From Alphaproteobacteria bacterium (GTDB lineage: Bacteria > Pseudomonadota > Alphaproteobacteria > UBA8366): 20,387 nt of DNA. How positions within the stretch are numbered: position 1 is the first letter of the stretch; every line of letters begins with the position of its first letter. Location of the stretch: positions 1-20,387 of the forward strand of contig JAOTYV010000053.1 in NCBI GenBank assembly GCA_029861675.1, written 5' to 3'. The notes beneath the pieces were generated by a model. It was given only the letters and a program-made list of their open reading frames with translations. It was not told the DNA's origin and ran no database searches. The translations under genes were made by a program, and so were the position numbers. Shown here one piece after another: positions 1-16,696 of this stretch.

Positions 1-1016
1 GTCACGTAATCGTTCAGCACGATATGGCCGGATTGCTCGCCGCCCAGATTGAAACTGTGCTTGCGCATATGTTCGACCACGTAGCGGTCGCCGACCGGCG
101 TGCGCACGAGGTCGAGATGCAAGCCCTGAAGGTACCGCTCGAGGCCGAGATTCGACATCACCGTCGCCACGACGCCGCCGCCATTCAGCTGACCGTCGCG
201 ATGCCAAGTCGACGCGATGAGCGCCATGATCTGGTCGCCGTCCAGCTTGCGCCCCTTCTCGTCGACGGCAATGAGGCGATCGCCATCCCCATCGAGCGCG
301 ATGCCGATGTCGGCGCTATGTTCGACAACCTGCTCGCAGAGGAATTCCGGATGGGTCGCGCCACACTTGTCATTGATATTGAGGCCATCCGGCTGAACGC
401 CAAGCGGCACCACTTCCGCGCCCAATTCCCAAAACACCGCCGGCGCCACACGATAGGTCGCGCCATGGGCGCAATCGACGACAATCTTAAGCCCGTCGAA
501 CCGCAAGCCGCGCGGCAATGTGCGTTTGACGAATTCGATGTAACGGCCGGGCGCATCCTCGAGCCGCTGCGCACGGCCCAAGCCGGCCGACACCGCGAGA
601 TCGAAACCGCCGTTGTCCATCAGATCTTCGATCTCCGCCTCGTCCGCATCGGAGAGCTTATAGCCGTCGGGCCCAAATAGCTTGATACCATTGTCTTCGA
701 AAGGATTGTGGGACGCCGAAATAACCACGCCGAGATCGGCCCGCAAGGACCGCGTCAGCATGGCCACCGCCGGTGTCGGCATCGGGCCGACCAGGACCGC
801 ATCCATACCCATCGAAATGAATCCCGCGGTCAATGCGGGTTCCAGCATATAGCCGGAAAGCCGGGTGTCCTTGCCGATGACGACCTTGTGCCGGTGGTCG
901 CCGCGCCGAAATCGCTGCCCGGCCGCCATTGCCAAATTCAGGACCGTTTGCGGTGTGATCGGATCGGCGTTCGCTTTGCCGCGCACACCGTCGGTGCCGA
1001 AATATTTCCGGCTCAT
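1..1016 (-). CDS. glmM: Phosphoglucosamine mutase GlmM (3' end cut by window edge)
   Basis: GlmM converts glucosamine-6-phosphate to glucosamine-1-phosphate in the cytoplasm, the step before GlmU on the way to UDP-GlcNAc for peptidoglycan and lipopolysaccharide. The minus strand is open from ATG 1016 to the window edge, giving 338 codons; the family is about 450 residues, so roughly the last quarter lies outside. The start [13 protein letters not shown] is the family N-terminus. The active-site loop [12 protein letters not shown] places the phosphorylated serine at Ser102, as in E. coli GlmM. The Mg-binding loop DGDGDR is at residues 242-247, and the sugar-binding GGEQSGH motif is near the cut end. 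A strong Shine-Dalgarno (GGAGAGAG, 1026-1019) sits 2 bases before the ATG. It follows ftsH on the same strand after 230 bases; folP, often found between these genes in relatives, is absent. Identification is secure. Confidence 0.96.
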
Positions 1017-1018
1017 CG

Positions 1019-1113
1019 CTCTCTCCGCACCAGCCGTCTTGCTAACCCCGTGCACACCCGCCTTTCGCTTCGATCACCCTGACGGCTGGAACCCGGCAAA
1101 TGAAGCGAAAGGC
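1019..1113 (-). promoter_or_regulatory. Structured leader of glmM: candidate H-type pseudoknot
   Basis: Two perfect inverted repeats interleave in the ftsH-glmM gap. Stem A is 12 bp, arms 1113-1102 (GCCTTTCGCTTC in the transcript) and 1071-1060. Stem B is 9 bp, arms 1089-1081 (CCAGCCGTC) and 1038-1030 (GACGGCTGG). The 5' arm of B lies in the loop of A, and its 3' arm lies downstream of A. The transcript order is therefore A-B-A'-B', the topology of an H-type pseudoknot, with connecting loops of 12, 9 and 21 bases. The B' arm ends three bases before the glmM Shine-Dalgarno. An upstream copy of GACGGCT (1217-1211) could compete for the 5' arm of B. No U-tract follows, so it is not a simple terminator. 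I do not recognise it as a known riboswitch class. The repeats are directly visible; their function is inferred. Confidence 0.6.
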
Positions 1114-1246
1114 CCTTTGGAACAGCCTTATCGACCGCCGCTCTAGACCGGCTGTTTAACCGGCAAACCACGTAGTGACAAGAAGAACGGCCCGCCTGTT
1201 TCCAAATGCGAGCCGTCTCCATGTATCAAACACCCACGACCAATTC

Positions 1247-3157
1247 TTAGCCGCCTTGCGGCTCCGGCGTCGGGCCCGGCGCAATCGGCGCGCCCGTGGT
1301 CGGAACCGACGATCGAACACCACTCGGCGGTGCGGGATCGTCGTCCTGTTCACGGATGATCGGTTCGCCCCGCAACAACCCCAAGATCTCGTCGCCGGAT
1401 AGAGTTTCATACTCAAGCAGCGCATTCGCAAGAGTGTGCAATTGATCGATATTCTCGGTCAGAATTTCCCGGCACGCCGCCTCGGCGCTGTCGACGATCG
1501 ACCGAACCTCTATATCGATCACTTCGGCGGTCGCATCCGAGACGTTTTTGGATTGAGAGACCGAATGGCCAAGGAAAATTTCTTCCTGGTTTTCGTTATA
1601 CCGGAGCGGACCGAGTTTTTCACTCATGCCCCATTCAGTGACCATCTTCCGTGCAATCTCGGTTGCCTGGGCAATATCGCCGGCCGCGCCAGTCGTGACC
1701 TTGGCATGACCAAACACGAGATCCTCGGCGACCCGGCCACCCATGGCGACCACCAGATTGGCCTCAAGCTGGTCCCGTGCCATCGAGTACTGGTCTTTCT
1801 CCGGCAGGCGCATCACCATGCCCAGCGCACGACCGCGCGGAATGATCGTCGCCTTGTGTACCGGATCGGACGCTTCGCTGTTCACGGCCGCAATGGCGTG
1901 CCCAGCCTCGTGATAGGCGGTGAGGCGCTTTTCCTCATCCGACATCACCATGGATCGGCGCTCGGCGCCCATCATGACTTTGTCCTTTGCGTCTTCCAGC
2001 TCCTGCATGGAGACGACACGGCGATTCTTGCGCGCCGCCAGCAGGGCCGCCTCGTTCACCAGGTTGGCAAGATCGGCACCGGAAAATCCGGGCGTCCCGC
2101 GCGCGATGATCCGCGCTTCCACGTTCGGGGCCAACGGCACCTTGCGCATGTGGACTTTGAGAATTTTTTCGCGCCCCAGCACATCGGGATTCGGCACCAC
2201 GACCTGACGGTCGAACCGGCCCGGCCGCAACAAGGCCGGATCAAGCACATCGGGACGGTTGGTCGCGGCGATCAGGATCACGCCTTCGTTCGCCTCAAAC
2301 CCATCCATCTCGACCAGCAATTGATTGAGCGTTTGTTCACGCTCGTCATTGCCGCCACCGAGACCCGCGCCGCGGTGACGTCCGACCGCATCGATTTCGT
2401 CAATAAAGACCAGACAGGGCGCATTCTTCTTGGCCTGTTCGAACATATCCCGGACGCGCGACGCACCGACGCCGACAAACATTTCGACAAATTCGGATCC
2501 GGAAATGGTGAAGAACGGTACGTTCGCCTCGCCCGCAATGGCGCGCGCGAGCAACGTCTTACCGGTGCCCGGTGGTCCGACGAGCAGCACCCCCTTCGGA
2601 ATGTGGCCGCCAAGACGCTGGAACTTTTGCGGATCCTTCAGAAATTCGACGATTTCCTCCAGTTCCTGCTTGGCTTCGTCAATGCCTGCGACATCCTCGA
2701 AGGTCACGCGGCCGGTCTTTTCGGTCAGCAACCGCGCACGCGATTTCCCGAATCCCATCGCCCGGCCACCGCCCGATTGCATCTGGCGCATGAAGAAAAT
2801 CCACACGCCTATCAACAGCAGGATCGGGAACCAGTTGAGCAGTACCGCGAACAGCGTCGGCATGCCCTCTTCCTCGGGCTCGACGGTGATCGTGACGCCG
2901 TGTTTCCGTAGTTTCTCCACCAGGTTCGGATCGTCCGGAGCGTTGGTAATGAAATGCGCACCGGCATTGTCGGTGGCCTCAATCTTGCGGCCCTCGATCT
3001 TTACCTGCTTGACATCGCCTGCCTCAACTCTGTCCATAAACACCGAATACGGAAGTGGCGCATCCGCCGCGCGTTGGGCCGATCCCTGAAACAGGTTGAA
3101 AAGTCCAATCAGCAGGATGAGGATGACGATCCAAAGGGCAATATTTCTGCCAAACAG
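1247..3157 (-). CDS. ftsH: ATP-dependent zinc metalloprotease FtsH, apparent CTG start
   Basis: FtsH is the membrane-anchored AAA+ protease that degrades misassembled membrane proteins and selected cytoplasmic regulators. About 636 residues are read from CTG 3157. The order is an N-terminal membrane segment (about residues 3-22), a periplasmic domain, a second membrane segment (about 102-122), the AAA domain with Walker A GPPGTGKT (about 194-201), Walker B VFIDEID, the second region of homology ([20 protein letters not shown]), the zinc site HEAGH (about 416-420), and a Pro-rich tail. There is no ATG, GTG or TTG between the in-frame stop at 3163-3161 and the first membrane segment. The first standard start, GTG 3043, would remove that segment. 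CTG 3157 has a GGAG Shine-Dalgarno (3169-3166) at 8-base spacing, so I place the start there. tilS lies 103 bases upstream. Identity is certain; the start is inferred. Confidence 0.95.
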
Positions 3158-15022: not shown

Positions 15023-15607
15023 TTAGGATTTACCGTGGACCGGTATCACTTCATCTTCCGTAACAATCCAGTCAAGGACTTCGTCCCACTGGTGGTGCGG
15101 CACTCGCGGCACCTCTTGTGCGGCAAAGGCAACACCGACGGCGGTTACCGGGCCATTCTCGCGCAGTGCCGATATCGTCCGGTCGTAGTAGCCGCCGCCG
15201 TATCCGATCCGTCTGCCCGCCCGGTCGAAACCGAGCAGCGGAACAATCAGAAAGTCGGGGGTCCCTGCCGCGGCCTCCGGCGGCGGTTCGCGCGTGCCCA
15301 ACGGTCCCCTTATCAGGGCATCGCCATCATGCCAAACCCGGAAGCCGAGCGCGCCAGGCGCTGGGGGCGTGACCGGCAGCAGGATCGAATGTCCGGCGCG
15401 GCGGAGATGTCTTGTCAGCGGCGCGACGTCGATCTCGCCCTTGACCGGGACAAACACGGAAACAACCGCCGCGGGCGCGACCGGGATACCATGGCGGAAA
15501 CGCTCGACCAGCCGCGCCCCCGCGCCCTCGGCCCGGGCCGCAATTTCGGTGCGGCGGTTGAGCAAGGTCTTGCGCAGGGCGGCCTTCTCTCGACCAACGG
15601 CATTCAT
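15023..15607 (-). CDS. fthC: 5-formyltetrahydrofolate cyclo-ligase
   Basis: The enzyme (also called YgfA or MTHFS) uses ATP to convert 5-formyl-THF to 5,10-methenyl-THF, returning a dead-end folate to the one-carbon pool. The 194 residues show the N-terminal basic helix (EKAALRKTLLNRR), VFVPVKGEID, and the ATP-binding glycine-rich signature GYGGGYYDRT at 135-144, preceded by FLIVPLLGFDRAG. The length is normal. It lies just downstream of the probable 6S RNA and zapA on the same strand, the arrangement of E. coli zapA-ssrS-ygfA, so it may share the 6S transcript. Confidence 0.94.
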   Translation of the reverse strand: MNAVGREKAALRKTLLNRRTEIAARAEGAGARLVERFRHGIPVAPAAVVSVFVPVKGEIDVAPLTRHLRRAGHSILLPVTPPAPGALGFRVWHDGDALIRGPLGTREPPPEAAAGTPDFLIVPLLGFDRAGRRIGYGGGYYDRTISALRENGPVTAVGVAFAAQEVPRVPHHQWDEVLDWIVTEDEVIPVHGKS

Positions 15608-15629: not shown

Positions 15630-15785
15630 GAGTGCGGCGCCACATCGGGCGTTAGTCTTGTATGTCCAAGGGACCTGGATAACCAGGTGGGCGCCATATA
15701 CCGAGGCCAGGGCCCCGACAGGGACAGCTCCCGTTAGACAACGTATAGCCCCCGAGACATTCGCGACCTCGCGCGCCGCGCAGCA
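15630..15785 (-). ncRNA. ssrS: Probable 6S RNA
   Basis: 6S RNA binds the housekeeping RNA polymerase holoenzyme by mimicking an open promoter. The 193-base gap between zapA and fthC has no open frame, and this is the classic ssrS position in proteobacteria. Distal stretches can pair as a long closing stem (GCGGCGC near 15773 with GCGCCGC near 15639, or AGTGCGG with CCGCACT further out; CGGG with CCCG further in). A hairpin ACCTGG-TTAT-CCAGGT (15688-15673) sits on the 3' side, where 6S RNAs carry a small hairpin beside the central bubble. A GC-rich apical part contains GGCCCTGGCCTCGG. Ends are approximate. The call rests on synteny and architecture, not on a covariance search. Confidence 0.68.
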
Positions 15786-15800
15786 ACCGCACTGATATAC

Positions 15801-16166
15801 CTAGGCCTGTTCCAGGCGGGCGGCAATAGCCTCTACGCGCTCGGACAGCGATTCCAGAGCCGAAACCGCCGCGTCCTCGCCGCTCGAGAACCCGGTCTTT
15901 TCGTTGCTCCGCATCCGGGCGATCGTTTCGTCGCTCGCCTCGCCGCGGGCAACCGCCAATTCCGCATAGGCGTCGGAAAGCTCATCGGCGATCAACAACC
16001 CCACCATCAGCAGCAGGCGGGCATCGCCGATCTGACCGACCGACGAGACCAGTTCGGTAACCCGCCGGTCGAGATATTCGGACAGCCGCGTCAGATGCTT
16101 TTCCTGCCCATCGTCACAGACGATCGAGTAGTCGCGCCCGTTAATCATAATTGAGATTTGGCTCAT
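15801..16166 (-). CDS. zapA: Cell division protein ZapA
   Basis: ZapA binds and bundles FtsZ filaments at the Z-ring. The 121 residues begin with the family beta-hairpin MSQISIMINGRDYSIVCDDGQE. The LTRLSEYLDRRVTELV helix follows, then a long C-terminal coiled coil (LLLMVGLLIADELSDAYAEL; ALESLSERVEAIAARLEQA). It lies 25 bases downstream of a second coiled-coil gene on the same strand, the arrangement of Caulobacter zauP-zapA, and 6S RNA follows. Confidence 0.93.
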   Translation of the reverse strand: MSQISIMINGRDYSIVCDDGQEKHLTRLSEYLDRRVTELVSSVGQIGDARLLLMVGLLIADELSDAYAELAVARGEASDETIARMRSNEKTGFSSGEDAAVSALESLSERVEAIAARLEQA

Positions 16167-16605: not shown

Positions 16606-16654
16606 GGCGCAACGCGGAGCGGCATGGTGCGGCGCGCATAGGGCGCGTTGCGCC
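16606..16654 (+). promoter_or_regulatory. 11-bp inverted repeat ahead of tkt, with a competing hairpin
   Basis: The 265-base gap 16432-16696 between zauP-like and tkt has no gene and must hold both divergent promoters; I see no convincing -35/-10 pair. It contains a perfect 11-bp inverted repeat, GGCGCAACGCG (16606-16616) and CGCGTTGCGCC (16644-16654), ending 42 bases before the tkt ATG. A second stem, GCGGCGC (16629-16635) with GCGCCGC (16650-16656), reuses part of the same 3' arm, so the two cannot form together. Either an attenuator-like leader or a protein-binding operator would explain it. Confidence 0.5.
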
Positions 16655-16696
16655 GCGTTAGATCTGTCTTATCGACTGACAATTGGGTTCCGCGTG

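Follow-up and report, generated by a model that had tools for sequence, protein, structure and literature searches.

Two perfect inverted repeats lie interleaved directly upstream of the start codon of glmM in the window, i.e. the whole stretch of 20,387 nucleotides of alphaproteobacterial DNA which was analysed here. The segment that they occupy (1113-1030, minus strand) is tentatively proposed to be a structured 5' untranslated region which is specific to the lineage and tunes the translation of glmM; we hold this preferred reading with somewhat less than even confidence. The genes and sequence elements involved are the following:

3..1016, minus strand: glmM (phosphoglucosamine mutase), truncated by the window end (NCBIfam TIGR01455, 506.8 bits)
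1021..1026, minus strand: glmM Shine-Dalgarno sequence (SD) GGAGAG, 4 nt before the ATG (sequence reading)
1030..1038, minus strand: 3' arm of stem B (B'), GACGGCTGG, 3 nt 5' of the SD (inverted-repeat reading)
1060..1071, minus strand: 3' arm of stem A (A'), GAAGCGAAAGGC (inverted-repeat reading)
1081..1089, minus strand: 5' arm of stem B, CCAGCCGTC, within the loop of A (inverted-repeat reading)
1102..1113, minus strand: 5' arm of stem A, GCCTTTCGCTTC (inverted-repeat reading)
1247..3043, minus strand: ftsH, the gene upstream of glmM (NCBIfam TIGR01241, 875.8 bits)

The interleaved repeats

All pairs of both stems are of the Watson-Crick type. Stem A has 12/12 such pairs, its arms being separated by 30 nt, and stem B has 9/9, seven of them G-C, with 42 nt between the arms. 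On the minus strand the arms follow each other in the order A-B-A'-B' within 84 nt (1113 to 1030), which is the order of an H-type pseudoknot, and by coordinates the crossing loops would be 12, 9 and 21 nt long, leaving room for both stems. The B' arm ends at 1030 and is followed by TGC, the SD (1026-1021) and the ATG (1016-1014). An earlier note on this DNA had described interleaved perfect repeats of 12 and 9 bp, the last arm ending three bases from the glmM Shine-Dalgarno, and both statements proved exact, to the coordinate. A role of stem A as an intrinsic terminator was rejected because no T-tract follows 1060; its loop is 30 nt long.

The ftsH stop codon is found at 1247-1249, which leaves a gap of 230 nt between ftsH and glmM. 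In this gap no folP could be detected by tblastn with the FolP reading frames of ten relatives (best E 0.094), as the earlier note had also stated, and the absence is common to two relatives lacking the repeats. An in-frame GTG (1053-1055, minus strand) lies upstream of the glmM start and would add 13 residues, running through arm B'. The corresponding N-terminal extension of GlmM is unsupported, none of the 120 homologues listed aligning over more than 96% of the extended query.

Another perfect inverted repeat, of 11 bp with a 27-bp spacer, is present at 16606-16654 of the window, close upstream of an open reading frame starting at 16694, which we take to be transketolase-like.

Frequency of comparable repeats

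The repeats of the 229-nt leader were compared with dinucleotide shuffles of the same leader and with natural DNA. Neither a perfect repeat of at least 12 bp nor an interleaved pair with an arm sum of at least 21 appeared in any of the 3000 shuffles, the best sum being 18. In the 831,606 bases of retrieved loci (partly overlapping; zero-length matches from N stretches were disregarded) 47 perfect repeats of at least 12 bp with a span of up to 90 were counted, i.e. approx. 1 per 18 kb, as well as 3 interleaved pairs with a sum of 21 (approx. 1 per 280 kb) and none higher; all three sit within open frames of at least 150 codons. Since the retrieved loci hold 3 such pairs per 832 kb, arithmetic from this natural rate gives approx. 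0.07 expected pairs per 20-kb window and approx. 0.0008 per 229-nt leader. Seven interleaved pairs were found in the window, the one in the glmM leader being the strongest. Given stem A, 16 of 20000 shuffles contained a stem B of at least 9 bp, as did 312 of 30000 natural segments with equal geometry.

For a leader, the interleaved pair is unusual; a 12-bp repeat taken alone, by contrast, is nothing special in a window of such size. The claim of the earlier note that a 12-bp repeat is unlikely by chance in the 230-base gap agrees with the leader shuffles, natural DNA being less strict. The feature is true and somewhat unusual, and chance is a serious rival to a structured leader: neutral drift of a G+C-rich spacer could have produced repeats without any regulatory function, a reading which appears somewhat doubtful to us. 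The equally strong pairs within open frames, together with the number expected per window, are in line with such a neutral origin, and so are the lack of a comparable pair in the sampled relatives and an overall leader folding z of only -1.4 (see below); the empty shuffles, the low natural rate per leader-sized stretch and the second stem (B), which ends right at the SD, argue against it.

Transcription of the leader and comparison with relatives

The two best syntenic relatives, L190 and L193 (genomes G522 and G631; also L200 and L201), are of one small order and have the genes ybgF-tilS-ftsH-glmM without folP, in the same order as the window. Their GlmM proteins are 74% (G522) and 72% (G631) identical to that of the window. 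Two further elements are located between ftsH and the repeats:

1182..1220, minus strand: terminator-like hairpin after ftsH with a T-rich tail (folding)
1154..1181, minus strand: probable glmM promoter (putative, from a motif common to L190 and L193)

The hairpin 1220-1182 has a folding energy of -21.7 kcal/mol (z -5.4), and none of 200 shuffles was equally stable. It consists of a 9-pair core stem including one G-T pair, a 12-nt loop and the tail TCTTCTTG (T in 5 of 8 positions), so it has the stable G+C-rich stem and the subsequent T-rich tail of an intrinsic terminator; the consensus terminator scan missed it because the loop limit of the scan is 8. A hairpin after ftsH folds in L190 and L193, too. 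The earlier note had proposed that a third segment, 1211-1217, could compete for one arm of stem B. The 7-nt match between 1211-1217 and 1081-1087 is real; the segment lies in one arm of the terminator-like hairpin, which precedes the probable promoter, and is better explained in this way.

The putative promoter of the window comprises TTGTC(A) at 1181-1176 and a -10 element TTAAAC at 1159-1154 followed by AGCC, with 17 nt from the pentamer to the -10. The pattern TT[GT][AT]C, 17 nt, [AT]TA[AT]AC, AGCC is present after ftsH in the window, in L190 and in L193; written from those three sites, it occurs once in the window and, in approx. 1.0 Mb of retrieved loci searched on both strands, at no other places than these. 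The sigma-70 scan lists no glmM promoter in the leader and the MAFFT alignment places the three promoters out of register, which is why we call the glmM promoter putative. The shared motif predicts a transcription start at about 1147, so both stems are probably inside the glmM transcript.

The spacing behind the promoter differs clearly. The ftsH-glmM gap is 152 nt in L190 and 133 nt in L193 vs. 230 nt in the window, and the distance from the -10 to the ATG is 57 and 37 nt, respectively, vs. 137 nt; the window thus has 80-100 nt more, which roughly equals the length of the repeat segment (84 nt). In L190 no interleaved pair with arms of at least 6 bp was found, and in L193 a weak one (6 + 7 bp) lies upstream of its -10, outside the predicted transcript. 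Because the spacers behind the promoter are shorter and free of the repeats in these two relatives, the element was apparently added within the lineage of the window and does not look like an ancestral glmM riboswitch. With their hairpin after ftsH, promoter motif and short glmM leaders in common, L190 and L193 represent a useful outgroup for the lineage of the window.

The same surplus bears on another explanation, in which the 12-bp repeat would be an element at the DNA level (a protein-binding dyad or the remnant of an inserted repeat) and not an RNA structure. The dyad is perfect and its segment is possibly inserted. However, the arms are 30 bp apart, and arm A has no second copy in the window even if one mismatch is allowed, whereas arm B does recur. 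A repeat element was rejected also in view of the best self-match of the predicted untranslated region in the window (E 1.2), and the best match of the leader in the retrieved loci has an E of 0.58. We regard a DNA element as extremely improbable.

Comparison was extended to the 229 nt preceding glmM in other relatives, L190 and L193 having been examined separately. Of 136 loci, none was too short and 5 were duplicates, which left 131 distinct leaders; the 229 nt often run into the upstream gene. None of the 131 contained a pair with a sum of 21, the best arm sum being 18. The comparison covers relatives with a GlmM identity of about 76% or less, and within this range conservation of the pair was not found. 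Since comparable pairs are absent in L190, L193 and the 131 leaders, the element appears to be young or restricted to the lineage of the window, as far as these samples tell.

In the small order, a third GlmM-bearing relative (G795) has different genes upstream of glmM, and in a fourth (G720) no GlmM above the cut-off was found. The ftsH-glmM gap, measured in 83 loci with both genes, is below 400 nt in 20 and at least 553 nt in 63; ten long gaps were inspected and all ten contain a FolP-like frame. The whole-genome searches for relatives comprised 1244 genomes including repeats, some drawn from the class. Among the DNA matches listed in these genomes and in contigs (80 of 584 confirmed contig places, not necessarily the best ones) the best GlmM identity was about 76%, and the best TilS among the matches listed reached 53% along its length and 55-56% when restricted to residues 4-357. 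The database proteins of the window's lineage include GlmM at 99, 93 and 89% and then 80-83% identity, and TilS at 94, 86, 86, 80 and 79%. In viral contigs no relative of the locus was found.

Predicted folding and access to the Shine-Dalgarno sequence

In the predicted untranslated region alone (1147-1017) the mean pair probability is 0.99 for A and 0.003 for B, and the preferred fold shifts with the transcript ends. The whole ftsH-glmM gap gives 0.64 for A and 0.36 for B; B is favoured by 1.9 kcal/mol in the transcript 1147-1000, and there is a tie in 1147-980 between the best A fold (-63.1 kcal/mol) and the best B fold (-63.2 kcal/mol). The two folds differ in the state of the SD, which in the transcript 1147-980 is unpaired at 0.79-0.97 in the A-only fold vs. 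0-0.34 in the B-only fold, where it is paired with 1095-1103. In the A fold the SD is open in the transcripts ending at 1000 and 980, and is paired with 999-1002 in the one ending at 950.

The duplex energies are -20.1 kcal/mol for A and -17.1 kcal/mol for B. With a pseudoknot penalty of 9.6 and an initiation term of 4.1 assumed in the duplex energies, a rough sum makes the pseudoknot approx. 4-7 kcal/mol less favourable than the nested ensembles of four transcripts, and it becomes worse still without the 4.1 assumption. This gap is near the model error, yet it leans against the pseudoknot. The entire leader has no unusual stability, 18 of 200 shuffles being as stable (z -1.4). According to these calculations none of the A hairpin, the SD-hiding B fold and the pseudoknot is singled out by the folding energies. 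Since A is made first and would be hard to open, cotranscriptional folding is expected to favour the A hairpin or the pseudoknot.

Hairpin A alone could also be the functional part, as an mRNA-stabilising 5' hairpin or by keeping the SD open, with B being incidental. The dominance of A in the ensemble of the predicted untranslated region, the mostly open SD in the A fold of the transcript 1147-980, and the occurrence of a stem B in natural segments of such geometry, as given above, are compatible with this. We consider it unlikely, because the A and B folds become equal, or B becomes better, when coding sequence is added, and B is perfect, G-C rich and abuts the SD.

Proposed mechanism

The structured leader that we favour would act as follows. 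With transcription starting at about 1147, the 12-bp hairpin A would be the first to form. When the stretch just 5' of the SD emerges, B' would base-pair within the loop of A, so that an H-type pseudoknot results. Its helix B would cover positions -14 to -22 relative to the AUG, beneath the 30S footprint. Helix B could in this position lower or tune the initiation of glmM translation, and the compact 5' fold may also shield the mRNA. The model joins the repeats and the longer gap seen in the window with a putative promoter and start site, a predicted RNA fold and a presumed effect on translation. Regulation of translation initiation had been suggested before from the position of the repeats: this stands insofar as the pair is real, exceeds the shuffles and is placed where 30S loading could be affected, but the conservation of the pair was not found.

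Relation to known RNA elements

The leader has no family in Rfam 15 at the gathering score, in agreement with the earlier note, which knew of no described riboswitch of such shape at glmM, and a search of the open-access literature gave no paper whose title concerns a leader RNA of glmM. Two chance-level matches in the leader, FMN (12 bits, E 2.5) and HOTTIP_3 (E 3.7), appeared with the threshold set to E up to 5 and were rejected. Neither the SAM-II riboswitch nor the glmS ribozyme model (Rfam covariance models) matched at gathering or relaxed thresholds. Elsewhere in the window a 6S RNA (Rfam RF00013, 54.7 bits) was identified at 15633-15789 on the minus strand, between the gene of 5-formyltetrahydrofolate cyclo-ligase (15023-15607) and a small open reading frame (15801-16166), presumably zapA, for which no NCBIfam match was obtained at 1e-20.

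GlmM acts in UDP-GlcNAc synthesis, and a feedback would fit this place in the pathway. If the leader were a riboswitch or another feedback element by which amino-sugar synthesis responds to a metabolite, an A-open and a B-closed (or pseudoknotted) state would swap on ligand, and in the transcript 1147-980 the A and B folds indeed have nearly the same energy and leave the SD accessible to different degrees. However, no Rfam family was matched at the gathering score, the two matches at E up to 5 being at chance level, and no comparable structure was found in the relatives which share the gene order and the promoter motif. The riboswitch reading is possible, its positive evidence consisting of the geometry and the near-equal folds, and we judge it very improbable. 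Feedback by a metabolite, a protein or an sRNA, as had been conceived earlier, is not supported, none of these being indicated. It seems quite improbable as well that glmM has a novel riboswitch or protein-responsive leader restricted to this lineage, with A and B (exclusive or pseudoknotted) switching SD access upon an amino-sugar metabolite.

For the structured leader that we prefer, covariation of both stems in close relatives would mean a leader control of the UDP-GlcNAc supply at glmM, and not at glmS; such a control, if true, apparently arose within one uncultured bacterial lineage. If the stems do not covary, the leader illustrates that one sequence with a strong interleaved repeat can be enough to suggest a riboswitch. 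The glmS ribozyme controls this pathway through a leader RNA at the preceding step. It differs from the present case in belonging to another gene, and its Rfam match is absent in the window leader.

The closest functional analogues are the SAM-II leaders and the pseudoknot traps of the S15 type. In SAM-II the SD is sequestered in a pseudoknot upon SAM binding, according to PMC9373788. The SAM-II leaders of alphaproteobacterial metA and metZ have an H-type pseudoknot closed beside the SD, and the window leader, if folded, would have the same placement; it differs by the gene, which is glmM, and by the absent Rfam match. The stems of SAM-II are shorter than the 12 + 9 perfect pairs of the window. 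In E. coli an entrapment mechanism has been proposed, as stated in PMC4137082. The likeness to the E. coli rpsO/S15 system, in which a protein binds a pseudoknotted mRNA leader, is that the 30S subunit might be trapped or impeded by a pseudoknot at the ribosome-binding site; the difference is that no autoregulatory protein is indicated for the window leader. To our knowledge there is no report of GlmM binding RNA. While a tested member of neither group, the window leader may work like the SAM-II leaders or like the S15-type traps.
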